The notes under the pieces: generated by a model
The model's database searches: none
Seen by the model: the letters and a program-made list of their open reading frames with translations, nothing else
Told to the model about the DNA's origin: nothing
Part shown: one piece after another, positions 4,329 to 60,257 of the stretch
Layout: each line of letters begins with the position of its first letter
How positions within the stretch are numbered: the first letter of the stretch is position 1
Virus record (IMG/VR): IMGVR_UViG_3300018080_004265
Location: 88,376-152,375 of that record
Source: a virus
Direction: 5' to 3' (one strand)
DNA: 64,000 bases
Program-made: the position numbers and the translations under genes

Positions 4329-4394
4329 ATGAATGAAGATGTCGAATTACATGATATTGAAATTGAAAGCTTAACCCTATTTGATATTTTATAA
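4329..4394 (+). CDS. acidic micro-protein, 21 aa
   Basis: A 21-codon frame with a near-ideal AAAGGAGGG site. The product is acidic (MNEDVELHDIEIESLTLF). Its TAA is directly followed by the next promoter's -35. The quality of the ribosome site supports translation; function unknown. Confidence 0.4.
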   Translation: MNEDVELHDIEIESLTLFDIL

Positions 4395-4423
4395 TTGTAC
4401 TTTCCCGATAAAAGTGTTATAAT
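4395..4423 (+). promoter_or_regulatory. class B promoter (extended -10)
   Basis: -35 TTGTAC (4395-4400), 17-bp spacer, -10 TATAAT (4418-4423) preceded by TG one base upstream (TGtTATAAT). Same type as the promoters before 9299, 15669 and 57547. Confidence 0.75.
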
Positions 4424-4445
4424 ATCAAGCAAAGGGGGGATGGCA

Positions 4446-4700: not shown

Positions 4701-4712
4701 ATGGGGGTATTT

Positions 4713-4874
4713 ATGAAAATGTTAAGAGGGATTGTAAGAGTGCGGCGAAGATGGTGGGAACAAGTTTTATATTTTTTTAAGATCATAAACCGTTTTAATT
4801 ATAAATATGAAACATTAGTTTTTTATGAAGGAGATCTTATAAATGTCGGTTATTGTGAAACAAAAAGAATCTAA
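4713..4874 (+). CDS. small basic protein, 53 aa
   Basis: A 53-codon frame after GGGGG. The start is very basic and aromatic (LRGIVRVRRRWWEQVLYFF), consistent with an amphipathic or membrane-associated helix. It overlaps the next gene by 32 bases in another frame. Function unknown. Confidence 0.45.
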   Translation: MKMLRGIVRVRRRWWEQVLYFFKIINRFNYKYETLVFYEGDLINVGYCETKRI

Positions 4875-5031
4875 TAAAACACGTGATATATTTGCTAAAA
4901 GTATACAACAATACAAAGTTGCGAGATCATTCGCAAAAAGTCCTCATGAAATATTAGTAGCAACAACATATAGACAAACAATTCTATTATTAATGAAGAA
5001 ATTTAAAAAAGCTGGATTATTAAAGAAATGA
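4843..5031 (+). CDS. small basic helical protein, 62 aa
   Basis: Starts after AAGGAG inside the previous frame. The product is basic and helical (IQQYKVARSFAKSPHEILVA, ending KKFKKAGLLKK). No known domain. The stop overlaps the next start as ATGA. Confidence 0.55.
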   Translation: MSVIVKQKESNKTRDIFAKSIQQYKVARSFAKSPHEILVATTYRQTILLLMKKFKKAGLLKK

Positions 5032-5126
5032 AAAAATATTCAGTGCAACTTTTAAAAAGGTGTACTAAAAAAACATTAATAAATATTGTTTTGAAATTAC
5101 AAAAGAAAGGAGATTGTGATGGCTGA
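5028..5126 (+). CDS. micro-protein, 32 aa
   Basis: A 32-codon frame linked to the previous gene by ATGA and overlapping the next gene. Basic and helical (KKYSVQLLKRCTKKTLINIV). Supported only by coupling and position, so it may be translational noise. Confidence 0.35.
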   Translation: MKKYSVQLLKRCTKKTLINIVLKLQKKGDCDG

Positions 5127-5292
5127 TTATATAAAAAATCCGGCCATAAGAGAGATTACAAAAGATATGCGCAAAAAGCCATGTAAGATTTGTGGTAAAG
5201 TAAAATTGATCCATAAATATGATGCTTTTTGTAAGCGATGTAAATCTGCGGCAAATAGAATAAGTCGTGCAAATTCAAGTATATTTTACTAG
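5119..5292 (+). CDS. zinc-ribbon protein, 57 aa
   Basis: A 57-codon frame with AAAGGAG upstream. It carries two CxxC knuckles (KPCKICGK at about 21-27 and AFCKRCKS at about 37-43) in a basic protein, a typical small treble-clef or ribbon. Probably a nucleic-acid or protein binder. The stop merges with the next promoter. Confidence 0.6.
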   Translation: MADYIKNPAIREITKDMRKKPCKICGKVKLIHKYDAFCKRCKSAANRISRANSSIFY

Positions 5293-5321
5293 TTTAAATT
5301 GCCCATAATTTACAGTATAAT
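5293..5321 (+). promoter_or_regulatory. class A promoter
   Basis: TTTAAA (5293-5298), 17-bp spacer, TATAAT (5316-5321), with TACAG before the -10. A consensus member of the family. Drives the DUF932 gene and its downstream operon. Confidence 0.78.
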
Positions 5322-5349
5322 AAGATATCAAATTAAGGGAGGGATTTAA

Positions 5350-6135
5350 ATGGCTGAAATAAGATTTTTATCAAAGGGAGATATAAGGAAGGTGGCACCA
5401 GCAGTTTTATCACATAATGCTGCTGATTATGTTTCAAGTAAATATTCTTTTGTTCCTACTGATACAATTATTGATACATTAAATAAAGAAGGATGGGGAG
5501 TTACTAGTGTAACTCAATCTAAACCTCTTAAGAAATATGTAGAACGTACAATGGTACAAAAACATATTGTAAGATTCAGAAATAAGGATGTTGATATTGA
5601 AGATAAAGAATATATACCTGAAATAGTATTAGTAAATTCTCATGATCGAACAAAGAAATTTATGTTCTATGCAGGAATATTTAGGCTTGTATGCGAAAAT
5701 GGATTAATAGTAGCAACATCAACACTCGAAAGATTTGAACTGATTCATAAAAGCATTGAAAAAAATGAACTGCTTGGCGCGATCGAAAAGGTAATAAAAA
5801 GACTGAATTTAGTTACTGGAAAAATTGATGAGATGAAAAAAGTAACATTGAGTCCTCAACAGCAATTAGCATTTGCAAAGAAAGCATTTGAAGTTAAATA
5901 TGGACATTGTGTAACTCCATTACAGTCAAAGCAGCTTTTAGAAATTCGCAGGCCAGAAGATAATAAGAACGATCTTTGGACAAAATTCAATGTTATTCAA
6001 GAAAATGTTATGAAAGGCGGGATTGTTGGTAATAAAGAGAATGGTCGAAAAATAACAGCAAAGCCAATTACTAATGTTTTACGTATAGTAAAAGTAAATG
6101 AGAAACTTTGGGAATTAGCTGAATCATATGCATAA
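5350..6135 (+). CDS. DUF932-family phage/plasmid protein, 261 aa
   Basis: Recognised by the DUF932 core: VPTDTIIDTLNKEGWGV, then YIPEIVLVNSHDRTKKF and the hallmark GIFRLVCENGLIV. The family is common in phages and plasmids; its molecular role is unknown, though it often sits among early or replication genes. The start follows GGGAGGG. It is the longest gene of the early region and directly follows a consensus class A promoter, so it is probably abundant early. Confidence 0.8.
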   Translation: MAEIRFLSKGDIRKVAPAVLSHNAADYVSSKYSFVPTDTIIDTLNKEGWGVTSVTQSKPLKKYVERTMVQKHIVRFRNKDVDIEDKEYIPEIVLVNSHDRTKKFMFYAGIFRLVCENGLIVATSTLERFELIHKSIEKNELLGAIEKVIKRLNLVTGKIDEMKKVTLSPQQQLAFAKKAFEVKYGHCVTPLQSKQLLEIRRPEDNKNDLWTKFNVIQENVMKGGIVGNKENGRKITAKPITNVLRIVKVNEKLWELAESYA

Positions 6136-6152
6136 ATAAAGGAGTGATAAAC

Positions 6153-6533
6153 ATGGGAAAAGTAAAGAAATACTATCAACTGAAACTTCAGGAAGATAAG
6201 ATCAAAACAGAAAAGAATGAGATCCGCAAAGAACTTATATCTGAGATCAAAAAGCTTCCAGGCAAAAATGAAGATAAATTTTTAATGGAAGATAATTTAA
6301 AAGCTGAAATTACTTATAAGCGTTCTACAGTTTATGATAATCCAACTGAAACAAAGAAATATTTTGAAAAACTTGGATTAGGTGAATTAGTCAATGTAGA
6401 AATTAAATTTGATAATAAAAAAATAGATGAACTTATTAAAAAAGGTAAGCTTAATAAAAAGGAAATAGACAAGATGCGTACAGTATCATGGACAAGTCCA
6501 ACTTTATTTGTAGATGTGGTGGAGAAAGGATAA
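6153..6533 (+). CDS. hypothetical charged protein, 126 aa
   Basis: I chose ATG 6153, eight bases after GGAG, rather than the GTG nine bases earlier that overlaps that site. The product is Lys/Glu-rich, with a helical N-terminal half (LQEDKIKTEKNEIRKELI) and an alpha/beta second half. Family not recognised. It lies in the DUF932 operon and may act with it. Confidence 0.6.
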   Translation: MGKVKKYYQLKLQEDKIKTEKNEIRKELISEIKKLPGKNEDKFLMEDNLKAEITYKRSTVYDNPTETKKYFEKLGLGELVNVEIKFDNKKIDELIKKGKLNKKEIDKMRTVSWTSPTLFVDVVEKG

Positions 6534-6538
6534 GATTA

Positions 6539-6850
6539 ATGGAAAACAAAAAAAATGAAGTTGCTCATGTGCTATCAACGGTTTTAGGAAAAGCAGTTAG
6601 TGATATTAATTTGGTAATTTTTTTAATGTTAATTATGTCTAATGATGAAAATCATAAAGATATAATAAATGAAATTACAAGTAATGTTAATAGGGATATT
6701 AATAATTTCACTAAGAAGCTTGTAAAAAATAAAGGGTTAATTCAAGTAGCTAGAGATATATTAGAGAATACAGAATTCGAAGATCATGATGAGAATAAAG
6801 TAATTGTTAAACTACACGATAATTTCTCTAATATGATAAGCTTTAATTAA
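6539..6850 (+). CDS. hypothetical helical protein, 103 aa
   Basis: I chose ATG 6539, after GAGAAAGGA. It has a hydrophobic helix near residues 22-33 (DINLVIFLMLIM), too short and interrupted to be a sure membrane segment, then polar helices. Not recognised. Confidence 0.55.
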   Translation: MENKKNEVAHVLSTVLGKAVSDINLVIFLMLIMSNDENHKDIINEITSNVNRDINNFTKKLVKNKGLIQVARDILENTEFEDHDENKVIVKLHDNFSNMISFN

Positions 6851-36623: not shown

Positions 36624-37138
36624 TAGTTGTGGATTTTGATGATTTTTGCGAAGAAGAAAATAAATTAGATTTACTTTATAAATTAAAAGAAAAAATTCCC
36701 AATTTTAAAGTAACTCTTTTTACTATTCCAGGTAAATCATCGAATAAATTTCTTGAAAATTTAAAAAAGAATGATTGGATGCAATTTGGAATTCATGGGG
36801 AATATCATACTTATTTAGAATGCGAAAAATGGGATAAAAATAAGATCAATCAAGTATTAGATAAATATGAACCATTAGGTTATTATGAGAAACTATTTAA
36901 AGCTCCATATTGGAGAGGAAATGAAGAAATCTATAAAGTACTGGATGAAAGAGGATATATAATTGCTGAAAATAAGCCGATTGAGTATGTAAAAAATAAG
37001 TATTTGTTATATAATTATTCAGTACATGGACACATATCTAATGTTTGTGATAATGGAATTGAAGAGAAATATGATTATTATAGCTCTTTAAATGGAGATT
37101 TTAAATTTATAACGGAGTTATTTAATGAAATTAAATAA
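36620..37138 (+). CDS. polysaccharide deacetylase-like (NodB) protein
   Basis: A 172-residue protein with VVDFDDFCEE, IHGEYHTY (HxxxH-like) and APYWRGNEEIYKVL, resembling the NodB carbohydrate-esterase core. It would remove acetyl groups from sugars. Shorter than most family members. Lies among glycosyltransferases, consistent with tailoring a glycan. Confidence 0.6.
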   Translation: MIVVDFDDFCEEENKLDLLYKLKEKIPNFKVTLFTIPGKSSNKFLENLKKNDWMQFGIHGEYHTYLECEKWDKNKINQVLDKYEPLGYYEKLFKAPYWRGNEEIYKVLDERGYIIAENKPIEYVKNKYLLYNYSVHGHISNVCDNGIEEKYDYYSSLNGDFKFITELFNEIK

Positions 37139-37706
37139 AAAAGAAATAGCTTTTATTTATAATTCTAATAAAATAGAACAGATTATGTATCCCCTTAAGG
37201 AATATTCTAAAGATCCAGATAAATCAGATCCTCATGTTGGGGGGCATATAAAAGCATTTTTATATATGAAAGAGAATTGTAAAAAAGATTTAACTGAAAA
37301 AGATATTCTTATAATGCATAGGCTTTTAACAAAGGATATTTTACGTCCAAAAGACAGCGGTGCATATAGAACTTGTGCTGTTTATATTAGCGGCAGACAA
37401 GCTCCTATGTATTATTCTGTAAAACCAATGATGGAAACTTTAATAGAATTTGCAAAAAGAGTTGGTTATGAGAATGATATATGGAATGTACATCATGAAT
37501 TTGAAATTATTCATCCATTTGTTGATGGGAATGGTAGAACTGGCCGTTTAATTCTTAATTGGCTTAGATTTAAAAATGATCTTCCATTAGAAATTGTTCT
37601 ATATAAAGATAGAATGGAATACTATACATCTATTGAAAAATATAGAATAGGTAAAATAGTAAGTAAAAAATTGGGGGAATTGAATGGAGATAAGGCATTA
37701 TATTGA
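37125..37706 (+). CDS. Fic-domain protein (AMPylase-like)
   Basis: A 193-residue Fic protein. The catalytic motif HPFVDGNGRTGR is complete, with the upstream EFEII helix. Near the N-terminus SNKIEQ resembles the (S/T)xxxE(G/N) inhibitory helix of class II Fic enzymes. It likely transfers AMP or another nucleotide to a protein. It lies in the sugar-decoration locus; target unknown. Confidence 0.85.
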   Translation: MKLNKKEIAFIYNSNKIEQIMYPLKEYSKDPDKSDPHVGGHIKAFLYMKENCKKDLTEKDILIMHRLLTKDILRPKDSGAYRTCAVYISGRQAPMYYSVKPMMETLIEFAKRVGYENDIWNVHHEFEIIHPFVDGNGRTGRLILNWLRFKNDLPLEIVLYKDRMEYYTSIEKYRIGKIVSKKLGELNGDKALY

Positions 37707-47668: not shown

Positions 47669-48349
47669 ATGGAAATAAAAGGTTGGCATAAAGTAAGTCT
47701 CATTGATTATCCGGAAAAAGTAAGTACTTTAATATTCACTTATGGATGTAATTTAAGATGTCCTTATTGTCATAATCCGGAATTAGTTTTAAAGCGTTAT
47801 AAAAAGCATTTACAAAATATAAAGGAATGTGATATAATAGAATTTATTAAAAAGAAGAATGCAAACAAAAAATGGATTGATGGAATTTCTATATGCGGAG
47901 GGGAACCAACAATCCAAAATGATTTAATAAACTTCTGTAAAAAAATTAAAGATGAATTGGGGATAAAAATAAAGATAGATACAAACGGAACGAATCCCAC
48001 TGTATTAAAAAAATTAATAGATAATAAATTGGTTGATTATATTGCTATGGATGTAAAAGTTGATTTATTAAAAGATAAGAAATACAAAAAAAGTGTCGAA
48101 TTAGTAAAAGAAATGAAAGATTATGAATTTAGGTTAACAGTTGTTCCTAAATTAATAACAGAAGAAAATATTGAAAAGATCATTGAAAATTTTAAAAATG
48201 CTAAAAGATTTTATTTGCAGAAATTTGAAAAGAGAGGCAATTTATTAAGTAATAGTTATAAAAATATAACCAATTATAAGAAAAATGATTTAGAAAAGAT
48301 GTGTAAAAAAATAAGTAAATATTTTAAGAAATGCGAGGTACGGGGGTAA
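47669..48349 (+). CDS. nrdG: anaerobic RNR-activating radical-SAM protein
   Basis: A 226-residue radical-SAM enzyme. CNLRCPYC (CxxxCxxC) binds the 4Fe-4S cluster and CGGEPT is the SAM-binding GGE motif; the start WHKVSLIDYPEKVSTLIF is typical of this group. It makes the glycyl radical on the 46-residue domain. The start abuts the HD-protein stop. It is closer to the pyruvate-formate-lyase/RNR activase type with a longer tail. Confidence 0.85.
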   Translation: MEIKGWHKVSLIDYPEKVSTLIFTYGCNLRCPYCHNPELVLKRYKKHLQNIKECDIIEFIKKKNANKKWIDGISICGGEPTIQNDLINFCKKIKDELGIKIKIDTNGTNPTVLKKLIDNKLVDYIAMDVKVDLLKDKKYKKSVELVKEMKDYEFRLTVVPKLITEENIEKIIENFKNAKRFYLQKFEKRGNLLSNSYKNITNYKKNDLEKMCKKISKYFKKCEVRG

Positions 48350-48825
48350 TGAAAGCAATAGTTGTCGACATAGATGGAACAATTGCAGATGACAGCAAAA
48401 GATTTGAACTCGCTAAAAATGATAATTATGATGAGAAAGAAGATAATAGTAGAACAGATTATACCGGGATTAATTGGGATAAATACTTTGATGAGATATT
48501 AATGTTTAAAGATAAACCAAATATAGTTTTAAAAGAGAAAATTGTACAGTATAATAATAATGGTAATAAGATTGTATATTTGACTGGAAGAATGGGAAAA
48601 CATAGAAATGTAACAGAGGCATGGCTCGACAAGCATAATTTCCCAAAAGGATTGCTTGTCATGAGAGATAATGGGAATTATGAACATGCCTATGATTATA
48701 AGACTAAGAAATTAAAAAATATAGTACAAATGTATGATGTTGTACATGCTTATGGTGATCGAGATGATGATATACAGGCGTATAAGGATTTTAAAATTCC
48801 TTGTACATTAATTAAATTCGAATAA
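48349..48825 (+). CDS. HAD phosphatase, polynucleotide 3'-phosphatase-like
   Basis: A 158-residue HAD protein; ATG 48349 follows CGGGGG. VVDIDGTIADD is the nucleophile motif, VYLTGRMGKHRNVTEAWLD carries the Thr motif, and the acidic GDRDDDIQAY closes the site. The TGR...WLxxH arrangement resembles the phosphatase half of T4 polynucleotide kinase. It may remove 3' phosphates from RNA ends before ligation. A nucleotide phosphatase is the alternative. Confidence 0.75.
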   Translation: MKAIVVDIDGTIADDSKRFELAKNDNYDEKEDNSRTDYTGINWDKYFDEILMFKDKPNIVLKEKIVQYNNNGNKIVYLTGRMGKHRNVTEAWLDKHNFPKGLLVMRDNGNYEHAYDYKTKKLKNIVQMYDVVHAYGDRDDDIQAYKDFKIPCTLIKFE

Positions 48826-48842: not shown

Positions 48843-49058
48843 ATGGCGAATGTACGTTTCTACAGACTAGGCGGAGATCCAGTTGACACAGAAATCACAG
48901 AGAAGATGACAGTTAGAGCAGCACTGAAAAAGAGTGGAATCAAGTACCAAGAAGGTGATGAAATCCGGGTACAGAACAGCAAAGTTGATTTAGACACAAT
49001 GATCACTCCTGATCAGGCACAGTTTGTTACTGCGATCCCGAAAGTACGAGGAGGTTAA
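48843..49058 (+). CDS. ubiquitin-like protein with free C-terminal Gly-Gly
   Basis: A 71-residue beta-grasp-like protein. VRFYRLGG is the first strand pair, ITEKMTVRAALKKSG the helix start, DEIRVQNSKVDLDTMI the later strands, and it ends PKVRGG, the last residues of the gene. The exposed Gly-Gly needs no trimming and can be adenylated by an E1. GC is about 44% (95 of 216 bases) against the AT-rich surroundings. E2-like, JAMM and E1-like genes follow at once. A MoaD/ThiS-like sulfur carrier is the alternative. Confidence 0.8.
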   Translation: MANVRFYRLGGDPVDTEITEKMTVRAALKKSGIKYQEGDEIRVQNSKVDLDTMITPDQAQFVTAIPKVRGG

Positions 49059-49064
49059 TGAGGG

Positions 49065-49116
49065 TAATATATTGGGGGGGGTGGAACCCTTATTAGCACA
49101 CCCCCTTAATATATTA
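49065..49116 (+). other. strong hairpin between Ubl and E2-like genes
   Basis: TAATATATT (49065-49073) pairs with AATATATTA (49108-49116), and the following G-run with CCCCC (49101-49105), around a GTG/CAC inner pair. No T-run follows. It may protect the 3' end of a short, abundant Ubl message or mark an RNase cut. Confidence 0.6.
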
Positions 49117-49132
49117 TAAAAAGGAGAAAAAT

Positions 49133-49753
49133 ATGGCAGTAAAGTTAAGTGAAGCAAAAGAACAAGAAAAATATGTTGAAATTTGTGCAATGAGGCATAA
49201 AGTTCAAGTTAAAAATCTTAAAGAGAAATTAAAAAAAATTGAAAAAGAAACTGCAGATGCTAGTAAGCAATTAATGCTGTTTGTCCGCGCGGAATCTGAT
49301 ACTAGAGAACAACTTAACGCGCTCGAGGAAGGCTTTGAAAAACATAAAAATAGATATCAAGAAGAATTTAAAGCTTTAAAAGCTTTAGAGAATTATGAAC
49401 ATATTGATATAACTGAAATACATGGAAAAGCAGCTCTAATTGGTTATACAGATGAAATTCAAATTGAACATGAAGGCGATATTTATAAAATTGGTAAATT
49501 TAGAGTTACAGTTCAAGATGCACAAATTTTAATTGAAAATATAACTAATAAGAGAAATGGATGTGATCATCCTCATGTTAGAGATGGTCGACCGTGTCTT
49601 GGGGATTTAGGCTCAACTTTACCAAAATTAATGGGTAAGCATGAATACGCTTTAGTTTTTAATGTTGTTTATAAATACTTAACAAGTTATAATAAGCAAA
49701 GTCCTTATCAAAAAATTGAAGCTTGGACAAAAAGCAGAAAGAAGGCAAAGTAA
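49133..49753 (+). CDS. E2-like ubiquitin-conjugating protein
   Basis: A 206-residue protein with a coiled-coil-like N-terminal helix (about 1-85) and a UBC-like C-terminal half. The active-site segment is CDHPHVRDGRPCLGD: HPH at 146-148 takes the place of the E2 HPN motif and Cys155 that of the catalytic cysteine, spaced as in E2 enzymes. GKHEYALVFNVVYKYLTSYN follows, like the E2 C-terminal helix. It would carry the Ubl thioester. The stop overlaps the JAMM gene start. Confidence 0.75.
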   Translation: MAVKLSEAKEQEKYVEICAMRHKVQVKNLKEKLKKIEKETADASKQLMLFVRAESDTREQLNALEEGFEKHKNRYQEEFKALKALENYEHIDITEIHGKAALIGYTDEIQIEHEGDIYKIGKFRVTVQDAQILIENITNKRNGCDHPHVRDGRPCLGDLGSTLPKLMGKHEYALVFNVVYKYLTSYNKQSPYQKIEAWTKSRKKAK

Positions 49754-50316
49754 TGTTACAAGTTATTTTTAAAGAAAAGGCTATTAAAAAAATTGAATAT
49801 TTTACCCAATTGGCTCCAGGAGAAATTTCTGGATTAGGTAAAGTAGAAAAACAAGGTGATAAATTTATTATTGAAGATGTTTACTTACTTAAACAAACAA
49901 ATTCTGCAGCTTATACAGAATTAGATTCTGAAGCAATTAATGATTTTCTTATTGATATGATGAGTAAAGGAGAAGATCTTTCTAAGATAAAGTTATGGTG
50001 GCATACTCATGCTAATTTTTCTGTTTTTTGGAGTGGGACAGACAAAGATACAATAGATAAATTTGCAAATGAATCTTATTTTATTTCTTTAGTAACAAAC
50101 AAAGCTGGAGATTATAAAATTAGATTTGATTTTCACGCACCGGATAGACTGACATTTGATGATATTCCTCATGTAGTAGATTTTACAGATGATAATGATC
50201 TAAAAAGACAATGTGAAGAAGAATTTAATCAAAAAGTTAAAACTAGATTATATTGGGATGAACAGCCGCAATATGTTGAAAATAATGAACAAGAAATTGT
50301 GGAGCATGTAGTATAG
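49753..50316 (+). CDS. JAMM/JAB metalloprotease (deubiquitinase-like)
   Basis: A 187-residue protein; ATG 49753 overlaps the previous stop. Glu24 in PGEISGLG and WWHTHANFSVFWSGTD (His84, His86, Ser94, Asp97) form a full JAMM zinc site (E...HxHx7SxxD). It would cut isopeptide bonds and recycle Ubl from targets. Maturation seems unneeded because the Ubl already ends in GG. Its acidic tail is of unknown role. Confidence 0.85.
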   Translation: MLQVIFKEKAIKKIEYFTQLAPGEISGLGKVEKQGDKFIIEDVYLLKQTNSAAYTELDSEAINDFLIDMMSKGEDLSKIKLWWHTHANFSVFWSGTDKDTIDKFANESYFISLVTNKAGDYKIRFDFHAPDRLTFDDIPHVVDFTDDNDLKRQCEEEFNQKVKTRLYWDEQPQYVENNEQEIVEHVV

Positions 50317-50334
50317 CGGTAAAGGGGTTAAGCA

Positions 50335-51000
50335 ATGTCAGATGCACAAAGATTTTGGAGACAATTAGATATTGTCGATAGTGATAAATTAAATATCCCA
50401 ATTACTATTATTGGAGCCGGCGCAATTGGATCATTTACTTGTTTAGCATTAGCTAAAATGGGATGTTCTAATATTACAGTATATGATATTGATAAAATTG
50501 AAGATTATAATCTACCAAATCAATTTTATAGAGAAAGTGATGTTGGTAAATTAAAAGTAAATGGGCTTTATGATCTTATAAAAGATTTTACTGGAGTTAA
50601 AATAAATATTAAAAATGAAAAATATAAAAAACAAAATGTTGAAGGAATAGTTATATCTGCAGTTGATAATATGGAAACAAGAAAAGATTTATGGAAAAAA
50701 GTTGAATATAATCCTCAAGTAAAATTATTTGTAGATGGACGCATGGGCGCAGAAGTCATGAGAATTTATACTGTAAAACCTCATGATATAGATGAAGTAA
50801 AGATATTTGAAGATAATTTATATACCGATAAAGAAGCTGCAGAAGAAAAATGTACAGAAAAAGCAATTATATATAATGTAACTGTAATAGGAGGTTTAAT
50901 TGCTTCTAATATTAAGAAATATGTAATGGATCAAAAATATATAAAAGAAATAATATTTGATTTAAAAAATCTATATTTATTAGCGAGTGAAACAAAATAA
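50335..51000 (+). CDS. E1-like (ThiF/MoeB) activating enzyme
   Basis: A 221-residue Rossmann protein. ATP loop GAGAIGS (27-33), acidic DIDKIED (51-57) and NLPNQFYR (59-66) correspond to the E1 NLNRQ signature, though its first Arg is Asn. VISAVDNMETRKDLW follows. Cys173 in EKCTEKAI could receive the Ubl. Compact, without a rhodanese domain. It would adenylate the Ubl and pass it to the E2-like protein. Confidence 0.82.
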   Translation: MSDAQRFWRQLDIVDSDKLNIPITIIGAGAIGSFTCLALAKMGCSNITVYDIDKIEDYNLPNQFYRESDVGKLKVNGLYDLIKDFTGVKINIKNEKYKKQNVEGIVISAVDNMETRKDLWKKVEYNPQVKLFVDGRMGAEVMRIYTVKPHDIDEVKIFEDNLYTDKEAAEEKCTEKAIIYNVTVIGGLIASNIKKYVMDQKYIKEIIFDLKNLYLLASETK

Positions 51001-51004
51001 TGTT

Positions 51005-51334
51005 ATGTCTAAAAATAAAAAACTTGATAATGTATTACTTGAAATAGCGAAAAAAAAGGAGCTAATTGCAAAGATAAACACAATTAATTATAATAGTTTT
51101 GAGAAAGATGCTTCTAAAGTTATAGATATTCTTCCTCAATTGACTAATAATGATGATTTTAAAGTATTAAATGTGTTTAATGTTGATAAAAAAGTACAGT
51201 ATAAAAAATATAGCTTATATAAGAAATTTAATATATTTATGTATATTGAAGGATTTAAAAGGGCTTTAGAAATAATGGGTGAAACTTTTATTAGTGATGC
51301 AATAAAAGATGATTTATATGAACAATCAATATGA
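51005..51334 (+). CDS. hypothetical protein in the Ubl cassette, 109 aa
   Basis: Starts five bases after the E1 stop. Mainly helical, basic and acidic stretches (NVLLEIAKKKELIAKINTIN; FMYIEGFKRALEIMG). No RING or zinc motif, so no obvious E3. It may be an adaptor or target. Not recognised. Confidence 0.5.
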   Translation: MSKNKKLDNVLLEIAKKKELIAKINTINYNSFEKDASKVIDILPQLTNNDDFKVLNVFNVDKKVQYKKYSLYKKFNIFMYIEGFKRALEIMGETFISDAIKDDLYEQSI

Positions 51335-51600
51335 GTGATTATGTAATTGGGATTTTAAGTAATGAATTAGATAAATTAAAAACAATAGCATCACGACTTG
51401 AGGGCGAATTAACAGAACATGAAGTATATGCTAATCAAACGAGGGATAGTTTAATATTAATAAGGCAAGCTATTAAAGAAATTGAAGATGAATTAAAAGG
51501 AGAATATATAGAACTTAACGAAGGAGTATCACCGATATCGTTACTTAAAATAAGTGAAATTATAAGAAAAGAAAATAATATATCGGAGGAAAGTTTATGA
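51331..51600 (+). CDS. coiled-coil protein in the Ubl cassette, 89 aa
   Basis: Overlaps genes on both sides. LSNELDKLKTIASRLEGELT and a following charged helix form an amphipathic coiled coil. Possibly an adaptor linking Ubl-modified targets to the ClpE-like unfoldase encoded next. That is inference from position only. Confidence 0.5.
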   Translation: MSDYVIGILSNELDKLKTIASRLEGELTEHEVYANQTRDSLILIRQAIKEIEDELKGEYIELNEGVSPISLLKISEIIRKENNISEESL

Positions 51601-54128
51601 GTTTATGTCAAGAATGCGGTAGAAATGAAGCTCAATATACTGCAATTTTTAATGTTAATGGCCAAGATATTCAAAAGCCAGTATGTGAACAATGTTATAA
51701 TAAACTTCAATTAAGTGTTGATGACGCCACAAAAGAAGTATATCATAAATTAAGCGAATCTACAAAATTAGTAATTTATTATGCTCGCAGACAAGCAAGA
51801 GAACGAAGACATAAATTTGTTTTAAATGATCATTTAGTTTATGGTATAATTTTAGAGAATGGAACTGGATATTCGACATTAGAAAGTGCTGGAGCAAATG
51901 TTGACCAATTAAAAGGGCAAATTGATTGGGCTTTAAATTCAGTTACTGATCTAGTACCTAGAAATAGTGGAGAAGAGCCTCAATTATCAGATGAAATAAA
52001 AGGCACTTTAAAAAGATCTCTTGAGATTATTAATAAAATAGAATTTCCAGAAATAGAACCTGAACACATATTATTATCTATTACAGAAGATAGAAATTCA
52101 GCAATATCTAAAAATTTAAAAAGAAATTTTAATATTGATACAATAAAACTTTTAAGAGAATTAGAATCTCAATTACCAGAGTCAGTAGATCTCGTTAAAA
52201 AATATAAAGAAAATGATATTAAAAAATCTGCTTTAGAAAAATATAGTAGAGATTTAACTAAATTGGCTAAAATGGATAAACTAGATCCATGTATTGGTCG
52301 AGCAGATGAAATAGAACGAGTTGTACATATACTATCAAGAAGAAGAAAAAATAATCCAGTGCTTGTAGGAGAAGCTGGAGTTGGTAAAACAGCTATTGTT
52401 GAAGGATTAGCAAGAAGAATTGTTGAAGCTGATGTACCAGCTTGTTTATTAACTAAAAGATTATTAGCTTTAGATTTAAATGCTATGTTAGCAGGAACTC
52501 GCTTTAGAGGTGAATTTGAAGAAAGAATTAAAAAAGTAATTGATGAAGTTAAAGCTAAAAGTGGAGAGATCATATTATTCATTGATGAATTACATAATTT
52601 AATTGGAGCTGGTGCTGGCGGCGGTCAAGGTATGGATGCTGCTAATATTTTAAAACCAGAACTTGCTCGCGGTGAATTACAATGTATTGGAGCAACAACT
52701 CATGATGAATATAGTATGTATATTGAACATGATAAAGCTCTAGAAAGACGTTTTCAATTAGTTGAGGTTATTGAACCATCAGTTTCAGAAGCTAAACAAA
52801 TATTACATGGAGTACAAGATCGTTATGCAAATTATCATCATGTTAAAATAAATAAAGATGCGATAGATGCTGCAGTTGATTTATCAGTTAAATATATTTC
52901 AAATAGATATTTACCCGATAAAGCAATTGATCTTATGGACGAAGCAGGAGCAAAAGTAAAATTAACAGCTCAAAAATTACCTAAAGAAATAATTGAATTA
53001 AAGAAAGAAATAATTAAAGGTAAAAGAGAAAAAAAAGATGTTACTAAACAAGAAGTTGAAGCTAAAAAGTTAATGGATGAATGGAGAGAAAAAAATAATA
53101 AATTATCTCTTATAGTTAATAAAAATGATATTGCTATGGTAGTAAGTAAATGGACAAAGATACCAGTAACAGATTTAATAAAAGAAGAAAAAATAAAATT
53201 ATTGCATTTAGAAGATAAATTACATGAAAAAGTTGTTGGTCAAGATCAAGCAATTAAATCTTTATGTAATGCTATAAGAAGAGCAAGAGTTGGGATTAAA
53301 GATCCCAAAAGACCAATTGGTTCTTTCATATTTGCTGGTAAGACTGGTGTAGGTAAAACATTAATAGCTAGAACTCTTGCTGAATACTTATTTGGGTCAC
53401 CAGAACACTTTATAAAGATCGATATGTCTGAATATATGGAGAAACATACAGTATCAAGATTAATTGGCGCTCCGCCTGGATATGTAGGTTATGATCAAGG
53501 TGGACAATTAGTTGAACATGTAAGAAAACATCCTTATACAGTTATATTATTAGATGAAGTAGAAAAAGCTCATCCAGATATATTTAATGTTCTTTTACAA
53601 GTTATGGAAGATGGTGTATTAACAGATGGAAGGGCAAGAAAAGCAGATTGTAGAAATGCTATTATAATTATGACTACAAATATTAGTGCAACTCAAAGAG
53701 ATTATCATATTGGATTTAATAGTACAAACATTGAAACAGAAGAAGAATATGAGAAATTAAAATCTACTCAAGAAAAGGCTTTAAAAAATCATTTTAAACC
53801 TGAATTTTTAAATCGTGTAGATGATATTATTGTATTTCATAACCTTAATAAAACTCATATGACTTATATAGTTGATTTAATGATCAAAGAATTGGCAGAA
53901 AGAATGAAAGAACAAGAATTGAAATTACAAATTAATAAAGAAGTAAAAGAATTATTAGTAAAAGAAGGCTTTAATAAAGAATATGGAGCAAGATCTTTAA
54001 GAAGATATATAGTAAAGAAAATTGAAAATCCTTTGGCTGAAGAATTGTTAACTGATAAATTTAAGCCAAAAGATACAATTATTGTTAAAAAAGAAAAAGA
54101 AGATATTCTATTTGATATAGAAAAATAA
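51597..54128 (+). CDS. ClpE/ClpC-like AAA+ unfoldase
   Basis: An 843-residue Hsp100 protein. Residues 4-33 form a ClpE-type zinc finger (CQEC...CEQC), followed by a Clp N domain (LSESTKLVIYYARRQA). AAA1 has GEAGVGKT near 258 and LFIDELHNLIGAG; a short middle coiled coil follows; AAA2 has FAGKTGVGKT near 577 and VILLDEVEKAHPD. HIGFNS near 705 holds the IGF tripeptide used to dock ClpP. It unfolds proteins for host ClpP. The E1 cassette directly upstream suggests Ubl-tagged substrates. Confidence 0.85.
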   Translation: MSLCQECGRNEAQYTAIFNVNGQDIQKPVCEQCYNKLQLSVDDATKEVYHKLSESTKLVIYYARRQARERRHKFVLNDHLVYGIILENGTGYSTLESAGANVDQLKGQIDWALNSVTDLVPRNSGEEPQLSDEIKGTLKRSLEIINKIEFPEIEPEHILLSITEDRNSAISKNLKRNFNIDTIKLLRELESQLPESVDLVKKYKENDIKKSALEKYSRDLTKLAKMDKLDPCIGRADEIERVVHILSRRRKNNPVLVGEAGVGKTAIVEGLARRIVEADVPACLLTKRLLALDLNAMLAGTRFRGEFEERIKKVIDEVKAKSGEIILFIDELHNLIGAGAGGGQGMDAANILKPELARGELQCIGATTHDEYSMYIEHDKALERRFQLVEVIEPSVSEAKQILHGVQDRYANYHHVKINKDAIDAAVDLSVKYISNRYLPDKAIDLMDEAGAKVKLTAQKLPKEIIELKKEIIKGKREKKDVTKQEVEAKKLMDEWREKNNKLSLIVNKNDIAMVVSKWTKIPVTDLIKEEKIKLLHLEDKLHEKVVGQDQAIKSLCNAIRRARVGIKDPKRPIGSFIFAGKTGVGKTLIARTLAEYLFGSPEHFIKIDMSEYMEKHTVSRLIGAPPGYVGYDQGGQLVEHVRKHPYTVILLDEVEKAHPDIFNVLLQVMEDGVLTDGRARKADCRNAIIIMTTNISATQRDYHIGFNSTNIETEEEYEKLKSTQEKALKNHFKPEFLNRVDDIIVFHNLNKTHMTYIVDLMIKELAERMKEQELKLQINKEVKELLVKEGFNKEYGARSLRRYIVKKIENPLAEELLTDKFKPKDTIIVKKEKEDILFDIEK

Positions 54129-54979: not shown

Positions 54980-55054
54980 GGGGGAATGGTGCTAGTGGTA
55001 ACACATTTGACTTGCAATCAAAAGTCTCGGGTTCGATTCCCGGTTCCTCCACCA
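54980..55054 (+). tRNA. tRNA-Ala (TGC)
   Basis: Full cloverleaf. Acceptor GGGGGAA/TTCCTCC includes the G3-U70 pair that marks alanine. Anticodon loop CTTGCAA between TTTGA/TCAAA. Discriminator A and CCA are encoded. First tRNA after the attenuator. Confidence 0.93.
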
Positions 55055-55055
55055 G

Positions 55056-55126
55056 TGGGAGGTCGTCTAACGGCAGGACACGGGGCTTTGAACTCCGGAA
55101 TGATGGTTCGATTCCATCCCTCCCAG
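55056..55126 (+). tRNA. tRNA-Gln (TTG)
   Basis: Acceptor TGGGAGG/CCTCCCA with U1-A72 and discriminator G, as usual for glutamine. Anticodon loop CTTTGAA. CCA is not encoded (G then CAA), so it needs the CCA-adding enzyme. Confidence 0.93.
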
Positions 55127-55140
55127 CAAAGGATAATTTA

Positions 55141-55677
55141 ATGACAAAAGTTATAAATTTATTAGGTGGTTCTAGTGTTGGTAAATCAACAACAAGTTGT
55201 GGGTTGTATTATAATATGAAATTAAAGAAGATCAATGTTGAATTAGTTAGAGAATATGTAAAAATGTGGGCGTGGCTTGGAAGAGAAGTTCATCCTTATG
55301 ATCAAATATATATATCAGGGAAACAGGCTCAATTAGAGTCATCTTTATATAATAAAGTTGATTATATTATAACAGATTCTCCGTTATTATTAGGACCAAT
55401 ATATGAATTATTTTATACAAAGAATTCTATTGTATTACCATCTGTACAAAGACAATTAAATTATGCAAAAGAAAATGCAGTAGAACATATAAATTATGTA
55501 TTAGAAAGACACCAAAAATATTCTCAATTAGGAAGATTTCAAAATGAGGAATCAGCAAAAGCATTTGATAAATTTTTAATAGAATGGTTAAATAATTTAA
55601 ATATTAAATATAAAATATGTAAAGTACCCGACTTAGAAAGAGTCGATTGGATACTAAGTGATTTGAAAATTAAATAA
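55141..55677 (+). CDS. P-loop kinase-like NTPase inside the tRNA cluster
   Basis: A 178-residue protein beginning at ATG 55141; any earlier start would lie inside tRNA genes. Walker A GGSSVGKS sits near residue 9, and YIITDSPLLLG supplies the Walker B/DSP element of NadR- and dNK-like kinases. The place between tRNAs suggests a role in RNA or nucleotide phosphorylation, perhaps 5'-end repair, but the substrate is not shown. Confidence 0.65.
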   Translation: MTKVINLLGGSSVGKSTTSCGLYYNMKLKKINVELVREYVKMWAWLGREVHPYDQIYISGKQAQLESSLYNKVDYIITDSPLLLGPIYELFYTKNSIVLPSVQRQLNYAKENAVEHINYVLERHQKYSQLGRFQNEESAKAFDKFLIEWLNNLNIKYKICKVPDLERVDWILSDLKIK

Positions 55678-55680
55678 TTC

Positions 55681-55960
55681 TCCTGCTCAGTAGATACTAT
55701 GTGTCGCTCGTGCAGGAATCCCCGTTAGCCAATAGGTTAGCGGTGTAAAAAGATGTGGCAGAAGGTATTGCATTTTCTTAACATACTTGGGCCGTGACTG
55801 TCCGTTAAGAAAAGTCCTCGATCATCACGGTGCGATGGAGGTATAAGGTCACTATACAAGTCAACGGACAAGGCTCTGGCGGGTTAAGGCCTACTTAGTG
55901 GTAATAAAGTCCCGATGGGTAGCGAGTGGTTGAAAATCTTGTCAAATCCTTATCATCTTT
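55681..55960 (+). ncRNA. structured RNA of unknown class within tRNA cluster
   Basis: The 285-base gap between the kinase and tRNA-Gly holds no gene but many stems (offset 55000): TCCTGC/GCAGGA 681-686/712-717; CCGTTAGCC/GGTTAGCGG 722-730/735-743; TTTTCTTAAC/GTTAAGAAAA 773-782/804-813; CCTC plus CATC / GATG plus GAGG 816-841; CACTA/TAGTG 850-854/896-900. TGTCCGTT (799-806) can instead pair with AACGGACA (863-870), excluding the third stem, so two folds compete. GC is above the coding background. Confidence 0.6.
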
Positions 55961-55962
55961 AA

Positions 55963-56038
55963 GCGGGATTGGTGTTAATGGCTAGCACGCCTGGCTTCCA
56001 ACCAGGAGGTATCGGTTCGAATCCGATATCCCGCTCCA
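55963..56038 (+). tRNA. tRNA-Gly (TCC)
   Basis: Acceptor GCGGGAT/ATCCCGC, anticodon stem CCTGG/CCAGG with loop CTTCCAA, discriminator U, CCA encoded. Confidence 0.93.
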
Positions 56039-56039
56039 A

Positions 56040-56112
56040 GGGGATGTAGACAAGTGGTCAAGTCATTGCCTTTTCAAGGCGACATTCGCAGGTTCGAATC
56101 CTGTCATCCCTA
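56040..56112 (+). tRNA. tRNA-Glu (TTC)
   Basis: Acceptor GGGGATG/CATCCCT (first pair G-U), anticodon stem TTGCC/GGCGA with loop TTTTCAA. Discriminator A; CCA not encoded. Confidence 0.9.
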
Positions 56113-56115
56113 CAG

Positions 56116-56189
56116 CGGAGTGTAGCTCAATTGGTTAGAGCGTTCGACCGATAATCGAGAGGTAGATGGTTCGACTCCATCCACTCCGA
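56116..56189 (+). tRNA. tRNA-Ile (GAT)
   Basis: Acceptor CGGAGTG/CACTCCG, anticodon stem TTCGA/TCGAG with loop CCGATAA. Discriminator A followed by CCG, so full CCA is not encoded. Confidence 0.9.
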
Positions 56190-56197
56190 CCGAAATA

Positions 56198-56273
56198 GGG
56201 AGTATGGTGTAATTGGTTAATAACATCTTTGGCTCCAAACCAAAGGATTAGAGTTCGAATCTTTATACTCCCG
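56198..56273 (+). tRNA. tRNA-Trp (CCA)
   Basis: Acceptor GGGAGTA/TACTCCC, anticodon stem TTTGG/CCAAA with loop CTCCAAA; discriminator G as in tryptophan tRNAs. CCA absent (GCA). Reads UGG only; no sign of UGA recoding. Confidence 0.93.
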
Positions 56274-56281
56274 CAAAGAAT

Positions 56282-56353
56282 GGTCCCATAGTGTAGTGGT
56301 CAGCACGCCACTCTGTCACAGTGGTAGCACGGGTTCGAGTCCCGTTGGGACCG
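56282..56353 (+). tRNA. tRNA-Asp (GTC)
   Basis: Acceptor GGTCCCA/TGGGACC, anticodon stem CCACT/AGTGG with loop CTGTCAC, discriminator G. CCA absent (GCAT). Confidence 0.93.
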
Positions 56354-56358
56354 CATAG

Positions 56359-56433
56359 AGCTCTGTAGCTCAGTGGAATAAGAGCAGCTCCCTACGAAGG
56401 AGAAGGTCGTAGGTTCGAATCCTATCAGGGCTG
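56359..56433 (+). tRNA. tRNA-Arg (ACG)
   Basis: Acceptor AGCTCTG/CAGGGCT, anticodon stem GCTCC/GGAGA (outer pair mismatched) with loop CTACGAA. ACG normally needs A34 to inosine. CCA absent. Confidence 0.88.
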
Positions 56434-56439
56434 CAAAGA

Positions 56440-56514
56440 GGGTCTGTAGCTCAGTGGTAGAGCGCTAGCTTGAAGCGCTAGGCGTTGGAAGTTCGATTCT
56501 TTCCAGGCCCACCA
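56440..56514 (+). tRNA. tRNA-Phe (GAA)
   Basis: Acceptor GGGTCTG/CAGGCCC. Anticodon stem CTAGC/GCTAG with loop TTGAAGC puts GAA at 34-36. Position 37 is G, unusual for bacterial Phe tRNAs. Discriminator A and CCA are encoded. Confidence 0.8.
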
Positions 56515-56515
56515 A

Positions 56516-56593
56516 GTGGCTGTAGCTCAGTCTGGACAGAGCATCGGCCTTCTAAGCCGAATGTCGCAGGTTCAAATCCTGCCAGCCACGCCA
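56516..56593 (+). tRNA. tRNA-Arg (TCT)
   Basis: Acceptor GTGGCTG/CAGCCAC, anticodon stem TCGGC/GCCGA with loop CTTCTAA, discriminator G, CCA encoded. Serves AGA, the favoured Arg codon in this AT-rich genome. Confidence 0.93.
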
Positions 56594-56594
56594 G

Positions 56595-56666
56595 GGCGGG
56601 GTAGCCAAGTGGTAAGGCAGCGGTCTGCAAAACCGTTCATCGGAGGTTCAAATCCTCTCCCCGCCT
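56595..56666 (+). tRNA. tRNA-Cys (GCA)
   Basis: Acceptor GGCGGGG/CCCCGCC, anticodon stem GCGGT/ACCGT with loop CTGCAAA, discriminator U as in cysteine tRNAs. CCA not encoded. Confidence 0.92.
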
Positions 56667-56671
56667 CATAG

Positions 56672-56747
56672 AGCCCTTTAGCTCAGTTGGGAGAGCGCTT
56701 CCCTTACAAGGAAGATGTCGGCGGTTCAAACCCGTCAAGGGCTACCA
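56672..56747 (+). tRNA. tRNA-Val (TAC)
   Basis: Acceptor AGCCCTT/AAGGGCT, anticodon stem CTTCC/GGAAG with loop CTTACAA, discriminator A, CCA encoded. Last tRNA of the cluster. Confidence 0.93.
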
Positions 56748-57546: not shown

Positions 57547-57792
57547 ATGCCTGTAATAGAAAAAGTTAAAAGAGTTATGAATATTTTAAATTATAAAGGC
57601 CATTCAGAACTTGAATGGGATGCTAATAATGAAATTGAAATTAAAAATATGGAAAAGAAATTTGAAGAAATGATTGATAAAGGTTATACTGCATTTAAAG
57701 TAGATCCTAAAACAAAAGAATCTAAAAAAATCACAAAATTTGATCCATTAGCTGAAGAAATAACAATGACTCCGCCTGCACGAAAGGGGTAA
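57547..57792 (+). CDS. conserved phage protein of a second E1-like locus, 81 aa
   Basis: ILNYKGHSELEWDANNEIEI and AFKVDPKTKESKKITKFDP recall a family I have seen in phage genomes, with a closing FDPLAEEITMTPPARKG. The short extended end with a terminal Gly invites comparison with E1 substrates, but no Gly-Gly is present. First gene after a strong promoter. Function unknown. Confidence 0.55.
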   Translation: MPVIEKVKRVMNILNYKGHSELEWDANNEIEIKNMEKKFEEMIDKGYTAFKVDPKTKESKKITKFDPLAEEITMTPPARKG

Positions 57793-57795
57793 GTA

Positions 57796-58650
57796 ATGGC
57801 AGCTTCAGTTTGTGCCGCTGAAGATAGAGGTACTTATACTCAATTATATTGGGAAGATACAAATACTAATTCTACTGCAAATTGGATTTGTGGGTCAACT
57901 GAAGATTTAACTTCTACTGGAACTTATACTGGCAATACTATGCGTTTTTATTCTACAGGAAGTTCTACTACATGGGCAGGTGTGGATTGGACAGGGGATA
58001 CTACAACATCAGCAACAGGATATATTACTTTTAATACTTATGATTATGATTTACATGATGAACATTATTATGTTTATGCTAATGGGGAATTAATAAAAAC
58101 AAAGAATGAAATTGTTACTGAAGATTCTATTGAGGAGATTATTAAAGAAAAACGTAGACAGAAATGGATACAACAATTAAGAGAAAAACGACTTACCATT
58201 AAACTGCAAAAAGCTGAGAATAGAGGATTAACTTTATTAGAAAGATTAATTGATCAACAACAAGTAAAAAGTTATTTAGAAAAAGGATATATAGATATTA
58301 ATAGTCTTGATAATACAAAAGTTTATAGAATATTTAAAGATGATAGTCAATTTATCAAAGTATACGAGAAAAAACCACAACTTGTTGTATCAAAAAATAT
58401 AAAAGAAGCATTAACTACAGCTCAAAAAATGAAAAAAATGGATGAGTTTGTTCTTAATGGCGAAACATTTATATTAAAAAGAACTGTATGTACCCATCAT
58501 CGAAATCAACAAGAAATACCACAAGTTGATGCAGTTATTTCTAAAATAATTCATTTAAGATCTAATATGCAATTAAAAGATTTTGGAAATGTGTATGAAA
58601 AAGGTGAATTAACTTGTGCTCAAAATGAACCAATAAGGATAGCCGCATAA
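57796..58650 (+). CDS. hypothetical two-part protein, 284 aa
   Basis: Residues 1-85 are Ser/Thr/Gly-rich and beta-like with Trp (TGSSTTWAGVDWTGDTTTSA). After a basic helix (KEKRRQKWIQQLREKR) the rest resembles a phage family with a SYLEKGYIDI, KVYRIFKDDSQF and VCTHHRNQQEIPQVDAVISK layout. It may be a virion or DNA-associated protein. I cannot name it. Confidence 0.5.
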   Translation: MAASVCAAEDRGTYTQLYWEDTNTNSTANWICGSTEDLTSTGTYTGNTMRFYSTGSSTTWAGVDWTGDTTTSATGYITFNTYDYDLHDEHYYVYANGELIKTKNEIVTEDSIEEIIKEKRRQKWIQQLREKRLTIKLQKAENRGLTLLERLIDQQQVKSYLEKGYIDINSLDNTKVYRIFKDDSQFIKVYEKKPQLVVSKNIKEALTTAQKMKKMDEFVLNGETFILKRTVCTHHRNQQEIPQVDAVISKIIHLRSNMQLKDFGNVYEKGELTCAQNEPIRIAA

Positions 58651-59108
58651 TGATAGCAACTACTGATGATAGGTTATATATAAGGGGTGGAGAAGGACAA
58701 TTATATGTTAATGCAAATCCAGTTTCTATAAAAAAAGATTCAATTACAGGAGATCAACATTTAAGATTCCCTAAAATATGCGCTAATTTTAATAAAGAAG
58801 TAAATTTAAAATCTTTGAGTAATTTTATAGAACAATTTAGACATATTGTAAATAAAGAATTTAATAGAATACAGGGATTTAAAGATTTTTATTTTATTTT
58901 AAAAGAAGATTTATTTCATAAAGTTGTTGATGAACATCATGAAAAAAATAAAGCAATGATAATTAATCAATTTAGAATATGTGATGTTAATATAAAAGAA
59001 GGAAAACAAGATCAACAATATGATATTATGACAGACAATACAACTTATTATTGGATTAATTTATTAAGGAAAACAGAAGATGAAATTCAAAATAGGCGAG
59101 AAAGTTAG
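58650..59108 (+). CDS. hypothetical protein, 152 aa
   Basis: Starts on the previous stop. Begins MIATTDDRLYIRGGEGQLYV, then a helical part (LSNFIEQFRHIVNKEFNRI). No motif recognised. Member of the operon leading to the second E1-like gene. Confidence 0.5.
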   Translation: MIATTDDRLYIRGGEGQLYVNANPVSIKKDSITGDQHLRFPKICANFNKEVNLKSLSNFIEQFRHIVNKEFNRIQGFKDFYFILKEDLFHKVVDEHHEKNKAMIINQFRICDVNIKEGKQDQQYDIMTDNTTYYWINLLRKTEDEIQNRRES

Positions 59109-59526
59109 AACTCGCTGGGATTTTAAATATGGTGGGTGTGATGGAGTTGTATTAGATTATAATTCTAAAGGACGTTATTTAATAGAATTTGATCATGATA
59201 TTGGTAGTCATGATTTATATGGAAAAGGTAAAAAAGGCCATTGTTATATGATTGATGAGAAATATTTATATAATTGTTCATGTAAAACATGTAAAGTAAA
59301 TTTAAAAGAAAAGAAAGGAGGAGTAAAGATGAGTGTATTTGATTTTCTATTGTCTCCAGATGATAAGTTGATTCGTGAAAAAGCAACAGACGATTGTGGT
59401 AATTTGGATCTGAATAACGTCCATGTACAGCAAGCTATTTTGTTGACAATTAAACCTCAACTTATTAAATTATTACGAGATAAAAAGGCTGATGAAAAAG
59501 CTAAGAAGAAAAAAAAGAAGAAGTAA
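59080..59526 (+). CDS. hypothetical protein with internal start, 148 aa
   Basis: Residues 1-75 are a beta-rich domain (GEKVRTRWDFKYGGCDGVVL, CSCKTCK). A strong AAGGAGGAG site sits before in-frame ATG 59329 (residue 84), so a 65-residue form (starting MSVFDFLLSPDDKL, ending in seven lysines) is likely also made. The two parts may have been separate genes that fused. Function unknown. Confidence 0.55.
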   Translation: MKFKIGEKVRTRWDFKYGGCDGVVLDYNSKGRYLIEFDHDIGSHDLYGKGKKGHCYMIDEKYLYNCSCKTCKVNLKEKKGGVKMSVFDFLLSPDDKLIREKATDDCGNLDLNNVHVQQAILLTIKPQLIKLLRDKKADEKAKKKKKKK

Positions 59527-59528
59527 TA

Positions 59529-60257
59529 ATGAAAAGATTTGATCAAAATCTTAAAACAAAGTTGATCGGCAATAAAGGACAACTTAAGCTAAATAAGGCC
59601 AAAGTTTGTTTAGTTGGTCTAGGCGGCACAGGTTGTCCTATTTTTGTCTATTTACATAATGCTGGTGTAGAAAATATTTGTTCAGTCGATGATGATAGGG
59701 TTGAAGAATCAAATTTAAATAGACAGTTTATATATAATGAAGATGATGTTGGGAATAAAAAAGTAGATGTTATTCTTGAAAAATATGGTCATAATATGAA
59801 ATTCGATGGAAAATCTATGAAAGGACAAATAAGCGTAGTTGAAAATAGTTTTCAAGGATGGTTAGAATTTTTAAAAAAACATGATGAAAATCCTCCAAAA
59901 TTTGATTTAATAATAGAAGCAACTGATAACTTTGAGACAAAAAAAGCGGTGCAAGAATTTGCTTTCAAACAAAGTATTCCATGTTTAATATGTGGAGTTC
60001 ATGGCTATCAAATAAATATGTTTGCATGGCATCCTAAATATTCTAAAAATAGATATGCAGATTTAATTAATTGTGATGACAATATATCTGAAAAATCAGA
60101 AGGAACATTTCCTACAGCTACTGGAATACTTGGAACTCTTGTTGCAAATGAAGCCATAAAAATATTATTAGAATTACATGAGAAAGTAATTTATAATAGA
60201 ATATGGTTTTATGATATTCTTCATAATCAATTAAAAGATCTTAAAATTTCAGTTTAA
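59529..60257 (+). CDS. second E1-like (ThiF/MoeB) activating enzyme
   Basis: A 242-residue Rossmann protein with textbook E1 motifs: VGLGGTGCPIFVYL, SVDDDRVEESNLNRQFIY, DLIIEATDNFETK and the closing GTFPTATGILGTLVANEAIK. It lacks zinc CxxC pairs. It is not closely like the E1 at 50335, whose NLNRQ motif has diverged. Its partner is unknown; small upstream proteins are candidates. The last bases carry a promoter. Confidence 0.85.
   Translation: MKRFDQNLKTKLIGNKGQLKLNKAKVCLVGLGGTGCPIFVYLHNAGVENICSVDDDRVEESNLNRQFIYNEDDVGNKKVDVILEKYGHNMKFDGKSMKGQISVVENSFQGWLEFLKKHDENPPKFDLIIEATDNFETKKAVQEFAFKQSIPCLICGVHGYQINMFAWHPKYSKNRYADLINCDDNISEKSEGTFPTATGILGTLVANEAIKILLELHEKVIYNRIWFYDILHNQLKDLKISV

Follow-up and report, generated by a model that had tools for sequence, protein, structure and literature searches.

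A predicted ubiquitin-like conjugation cassette adjoining a ClpE/ClpC-type unfoldase gene in a contractile-tailed phage

Gene content of the locus

Our study concerns a run of seven genes in a 64,000-nucleotide stretch of viral DNA (the window; bases 88376-152375 of the 152-kb virus record IMGVR_UViG_3300018080_004265), the first four of which encode a ubiquitin-like protein (Ubl) and candidate E2, JAB/JAMM and E1 enzymes for its attachment and removal. The record carries terminase, portal, tail sheath and baseplate genes and thus derives from a contractile-tailed phage. A first-pass annotation, made from the letters of the DNA, had described the run as a full conjugation system leading into a ClpE-like protein; the open reading frames (ORFs) all lie where it placed them, on a single strand, and the motif residues that it named in the Ubl, E2, JAB and Clp proteins, including the IGF tripeptide of the latter, are all present (Table 1). 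The seven ORFs, which occupy 48843-54128, all point the same way, and most of them overlap or lie close together; their junctions measure 74, -1, 18, -14, -4 and -4 bases from the Ubl gene through to the Clp gene (gaps positive, overlaps negative). Shine-Dalgarno-like sequences lie 5' of the Ubl, E2 and Clp ORFs, and an alternative TTG start for the JAB ORF is found at 49723, upstream of its ATG at 49753. The phosphatase gene that precedes the run probably has no part in conjugation.

Table 1. Genes of the run and its upstream neighbour, in window coordinates.
Feature	Position	Strand	Basis or remarks
HAD/PNKP-type phosphatase	48331..48825	+	Pfam HAD_PNKP 4e-13; 41% identity to L060 counterpart
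Ubl, 71 residues, beta-grasp modifier ending PKVRGG	48843..49058	+	AlphaFold2 model, Foldseek, family profile
E2-like protein, 206 residues, coiled coil and E2-like domain	49133..49753	+	HPH 146-148, Cys155
JAB/JAMM metallopeptidase	49753..50316	+	E24, H84, H86, S94, D97
Minimal E1, 221 residues, adenylation domain with Cys173-Thr174	50335..51000	+	Pfam ThiF 8e-20
Small protein, 115 residues	50987..51334	+	Function unassigned; no convincing L060 counterpart
Small coiled-coil-like protein, 89 residues	51331..51600	+	Positional counterpart in L060 has 101 residues
ClpE/ClpC-type AAA+ unfoldase	51597..54128	+	N-terminal zinc finger, Clp_N, two AAA modules, IGF loop

The modifier and its enzymes

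The first gene of the run encodes a beta-grasp modifier with a C-terminal glycine. Structure prediction, which had been proposed as a check on this protein, gave a beta-grasp model (AlphaFold2; predicted local distance difference test score, pLDDT, 86.8) whose top Foldseek matches are ubiquitin, NEDD8 and MoaD (E 1.9e-3 to 3e-3, probability 1.00). A profile of the Ubl family (23 members) matches PF1061 (2e-8) and SAMP2 (5e-8) in the PDB, while the single sequence has no match in the Pfam, PADLOC, PHROG and NCBIfam family libraries. The PKVRGG terminus resembles the PKIRGG ends of bacterial relatives. The terminal Gly-Gly, which the first-pass annotation had treated as a hallmark, is present in the window protein and is not universal in its family: other phage Ubls carry GG followed by 1-21 extra residues, or a single glycine followed by N, A, R, S or Q, so that many end in ..G-N, ..G-A or ..SG-R. 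Processing by the JAMM enzyme of Ubls with residues beyond the glycine is plausible in these phage relatives and would be unnecessary for the window protein.

The E1-like protein has a GxGAxG motif and a C173-T174 pair, and the Cys-Thr is invariant in 11 aligned sequences; its family profile matches ThiF, UBA1, UBA5 and UBA6. These features, together with the Pfam match, point to an E1 adenylation domain with a candidate catalytic cysteine. The JAB protein scores weakly against its families (PADLOC JAB 7e-4, Pfam Prok-JAB 0.08), and its JAMM motif (E-HxH-x7-S-x2-D) is complete and conserved across relatives.

The 206-residue protein was modelled with high confidence (pLDDT 93.3) as an N-terminal coiled coil followed by an E2-like domain, and an alignment of 22 sequences has H146, P147, H148, G152, C155, G157 and W198 among its invariant positions. 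An initial profile search of the PDB with the full alignment was swamped by coiled-coil matches and the core alone was therefore searched; 8 of its 9 matches were to UBE2L3 (E ~0.2), with the HPN motif and the cysteine aligned. Comparison of hidden Markov models (HMM-HMM, hhalign) between this family and ubiquitin-conjugating (UBC) enzymes, for which the yardstick was three human E2 sequences, scored 28.2; the highest score among 200 column shuffles was 16.8, and the reversed profile reached 11.3. Among viral structures, Foldseek returned one strong match, which has no name (E 3e-4), and a weak match to a phage protein labelled 'Type II CBASS E2' (CBASS, cyclic oligonucleotide-based antiphage signalling system; E 0.16). 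From its sequence features, we read this protein as a putative divergent E2. The invariance of HPH, G152 and C155 across the 22 E2-like proteins, and the recurrence of the gene set in many unrelated contigs, argue that the set is not a chance assembly.

Cysteine-rich, zinc-finger-like tails are found on the E2-like proteins of four other loci (L031 3238-4551, L044 3232-4269, L046 549-1856 and L047 5220-6302), one of which, L046, comes from a Heimdallarchaeota record; judging by their sequences, these tails might be built-in ligase domains. At least two matches to the E2 profile stand beside one E1 in L093, L109, L120 and L130.

Distribution of the cassette

Single-sequence searches of viral contigs with the E2 and E1 proteins, and an E2 tblastn search of named phages, gave no matches; relatives were found with a degenerate DNA pattern of the E2 active site (HPH..C) and with the E1 alignment. 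The pattern identified 23 viral contigs, of which the majority carry E2-JAB-E1; it also picked out 24 genome contigs, and this set recurs in many of them. The E1 alignment found relatives in 118 viral contigs, 80 of which were kept for locus counts. JAB adjoins E1 in 78 of these 80 loci, E2 is present in 61, Ubl in 52 and all four parts in 49, most commonly in the order Ubl-E2-JAB-E1; these counts are approximate, as contig ends truncate some of the loci and the Ubl profile was applied at a loose threshold (E 0.3). The gene set and its order are therefore conserved in relatives, a point on which the first-pass annotation had called for evidence.

The same order (Ubl-like, E2-like, JAB, ThiF) occurs in Fipvunavirus and in crAss-like Steigviridae, gut crAss-like phages included, where the Ubl and E2 were assigned by inspection of the sequences. 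The cassettes of Flavobacterium and crAss-like phages are annotated as 'thiamine biosynthesis ThiF'. In Flavobacterium phage Fpv1 the JAB gene (L002 3988-4983) seems to be interrupted by an ORF on the opposite strand, which may represent an endonuclease-containing intron. The four-gene cassette is also present in Methylomirabilota, Rubrobacter, Nitrospinae, Paceibacterota and Ignavibacteria records, and most Ubls of the cassettes in cellular records end in PKIRGG or similar. Cellular and phage rows are intermixed in the E1 tree, with about 4-5 label changes needed, and a search of plasmids with the E1 of L053 gave partial matches only. The three genes flanking each side of other cassettes, surveyed qualitatively, frequently have roles in DNA replication or recombination and include DNA polymerase, primase, ligase, RecA/UvsX, SbcC/D and a PCNA-type clamp; the listed neighbour families include no cofactor genes.

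The unfoldase and the small genes

The last gene of the run encodes a protein with a zinc finger (C4/C7/C30/C33), two Walker A/B sets and an IGF loop at residues 705-707. It matches the Pfam domains AAA_2, AAA_lid_9, ClpB_D2-small and Clp_N, and its closest PDB relatives are ClpC, which places it with the ClpE/ClpC proteins. A related phage on a 178-kb contig (L060) matches the window in gene order (HAD, Ubl, E2, JAB, E1, a small gene, Clp), with protein identities of 61% (Ubl), 50% (E2), 51% (JAB), 65% (E1) and 67% (Clp). Related NrdD and HD-domain genes lie upstream in both phages, and the genes beyond Clp differ between them. Within the run, the 115-residue protein has no significant match in Pfam, PHROG or NCBIfam, a weak one in PADLOC (0.003), and resembles the 101-residue protein of L060 at E 0.004 only. 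The 89-residue protein aligns weakly with the same 101-residue protein (25% over 84 residues, E 1e-4, with composition correction off), and both of their genes overlap the Clp start by 4 bases.

The first-pass annotation had joined the cassette to the unfoldase and inferred that tagged proteins are fed to host ClpP. The physical link is real, being seen in the window and in L060, and it is narrow: Clp was found directly beside the cassette in these two phages only, and the ClpB/C small domain occurs in 3 of 50 cassette-bearing contigs, L060 included. Another of the three, a Clp fragment in the contig of L061, was rejected as an unrelated ClpB-like piece at the contig end. ClpP was found in 4 of the 50 contigs. 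On one phage contig, L147, ClpP-like and Clp ATPase genes lie near each other (2565-6570), and a cassette is present elsewhere on it.

Two accounts of this adjacency compete. In one, the Clp protein is an independent early gene (a chaperone, a disaggregase or a factor in host takeover) with no functional tie to the Ubl. Cassette relatives mostly lack Clp and phage records with a Clp ATPase and no cassette exist, some of which look like host DNA. This account, to which we give close to even weight, has to accommodate the preservation of the adjacency between two diverged phages despite their differing downstream genes. In the other, which extends the conjugation reading of the cassette, the Ubl would mark host or phage proteins that the phage Clp threads into host ClpP, with Clp perhaps recognizing them through the 89-residue protein. 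The position of Clp downstream of the cassette, overlapping the preceding small gene in both phages, is consistent with this, as is the retention of IGF and both Walker sets in both Clp proteins. Against it stand the absence of Clp from most cassettes and the neighbouring genes common to both Clp-bearing phages, which make co-inheritance in a single lineage a sufficient explanation of the adjacency. Moreover, a ClpP gene was found neither on the contig of the window nor on that of L060, so that delivery to host ClpP is something we infer; we regard this second account as possible and are inclined to doubt it.

A cluster of 12 tRNA genes lies downstream of Clp (window 54980-56747), and tRNA genes are also found nearby in L060. 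The NrdD and NrdG-like genes of L060 (863-4978) seem to be interrupted by inserted sequence, possibly inteins. Elsewhere in the window, a Fic/DOC-family protein is encoded at 37125-37706 (Pfam 1.6e-14) and a second ThiF-family gene at 59529-60257 (Pfam 5e-45); the latter is MoeB-like, lacks the Cys-Thr of the cassette E1 and has no counterpart as a second ThiF gene on the L060 contig. A possible second Ubl system at 57547-60257 was discounted, since the phage protein that its 81-residue product matches has no di-glycine at the C terminus.

Comparison with known systems

The closest likenesses are to the uncharacterized cassettes of the five cellular lineages, which contain the same four families (E1 41-52%, JAB 32-43% and E2 23-37% identical to the window). 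They differ in that most of their E2s have a longer N-terminal part, the Ubl is often last in the order and, unlike the window, the fetched flanks contain no Clp. The Fipvunavirus and crAss-like Steigviridae ThiF clusters share the gene order of the window, but their Ubl-like domain resides on a protein of 226-308 residues, their E2 motif is divergent, their E1 is about 30% identical and the stretches read contain no Clp. The unfoldase resembles ClpE/ClpC in its zinc finger, Clp_N, two AAA modules and IGF, and differs in being phage-borne and adjoining a Ubl cassette.

BilABCD is likewise a four-gene set of Ubl, E2, JAB and E1, in which the Ubl has two domains, the E1 has inactive and active domains and the E2 carries a CEHH motif (PMC11354881). 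The window instead has a single-domain Ubl of 71 residues and an E1 of 221 residues, and its E2 lacks Glu, His and His at +6, +8 and +13 from C155, with the HPH lying upstream. Type II CBASS shares E1/E2 chemistry and a JAB isopeptidase (Cap2/Cap3); there, a single Cap2 protein combines the E1 and E2 domains and acts on a cGAS-like enzyme (PMC10097602, PMC12355090), whereas in the window E1 and E2 are separate ORFs accompanied by a beta-grasp Ubl. The best PADLOC E1-E2 match spans residues 21-103 of the window E1 only, and the PADLOC scan found no cGAS-like nucleotidyltransferase among the seven proteins of the run, no dedicated search for one having been made. The type 6d operons of Iyer 2006 and the PRTRC systems also comprise a Ubl with a C-terminal glycine, E2, JAB and E1. 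The type 6d E2 lacks the classical histidine and has an alpha-helical partner (PMC1779556), unlike the window E2 with its HPH, and the window E1 scores 41.4 bits against a curated cut-off of 144.75 bits for the PRTRC ThiF. The cassette is thus neither Bil nor type II CBASS nor PRTRC. Our literature search turned up bacterial Ubl operons and defence systems and no phage cassette of this kind in the open-access literature that it covered; an earlier mention elsewhere is possible.

Host defences of the Ubl type exist (PMC10097602, PMC11354881), and competition with them is conceivable: the phage Ubl chemistry could alter or block host defences of the E1/E2 type, Bil or CBASS for example. Our analysis yields no direct support for such a counter-defence role, and the cassettes often lie beside replication genes and are present in bacterial genomes too; we judge it improbable.

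A model for the cassette

The full Ubl-E2-JAMM-E1 set claimed by the first-pass annotation is well supported by families, motifs, the Ubl model and gene order, and we consider it likely that the genes between 48843 and 51000 form a working phage-encoded ubiquitin-like conjugation cassette, an assessment that does not extend to the Clp step. Several observations weigh against it. The Foldseek search of the confident E2 model against the PDB found no UBC-fold relative, and no model in Pfam, PHROG or NCBIfam matches the protein; the case for a UBC relationship is built on PDB profile matches short of significance and on a shuffle-controlled HMM-HMM score, and the UBC fold suspected at the outset is accordingly favoured by the profiles and disfavoured by the structural search. 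Our searches were seeded by the window family, so that their counts describe relatives of the cassette and not all phages, and the tally of replication neighbours was made without comparison to a background set. Finally, the nearest PDB sequence relatives of the Ubl, namely SAMP2, ThiS and MoaD, include sulfur carriers. A sulfur carrier system, serving for example tRNA thiolation or a cofactor, would also accord with the ThiF-like E1 and the downstream tRNA cluster. However, most loci include an E2-like gene in the set, which argues against a pure sulfur carrier, and the tie to cofactor genes that such a role would lead one to expect is not seen among the neighbour families. Neither Clp-bearing contig has an ATP_bind_3 gene (PF01171; TtuA/Ncs6-type), although this search did not extend to other partners such as MnmA-type enzymes and a host partner is conceivable. 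We therefore give a sulfur carrier only a slim chance.

On sequence grounds, the cassette is most likely a reversible protein-conjugation system, for which we infer the enzyme activities, targets and timing, and the role of Clp, as follows. The E1 would adenylate the Ubl at its C-terminal glycine and load it onto Cys173. Cys155 of the coiled-coil E2 would then receive the Ubl, for linkage by the E2 to target proteins. The JAMM enzyme would take the Ubl off these targets and, in relatives with residues after the glycine, would also mature the precursor; since Gly-Gly is already the terminus of the window Ubl, the enzyme there more likely serves in deconjugation. The system perhaps acts together with phage genome replication or recombination, as suggested by the gene neighbourhoods in other phages. 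In the lineage of the window a ClpE/ClpC-type unfoldase has been added, which would plausibly remodel tagged proteins or hand them to host ClpP. Degradation of tagged proteins by this route is an unproven, lineage-specific hypothesis, and a complete tag-and-destroy pathway, in which the conjugation/deconjugation cassette and a dedicated AAA+ unfoldase work with host ClpP as a viral analogue of the ubiquitin-proteasome system, seems to us rather unlikely.

Bacterial Ubl conjugation is known chiefly in the context of host defence. A Ubl-E2-JAMM-E1 set conserved in many phages, gut crAss-like phages included, would make viruses users of Ubl chemistry, and would account for genes now labelled 'thiamine biosynthesis ThiF'. 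The system is compact and suited to reconstitution, and the presence of an unfoldase in one lineage makes the idea of tagging and degradation directly testable.

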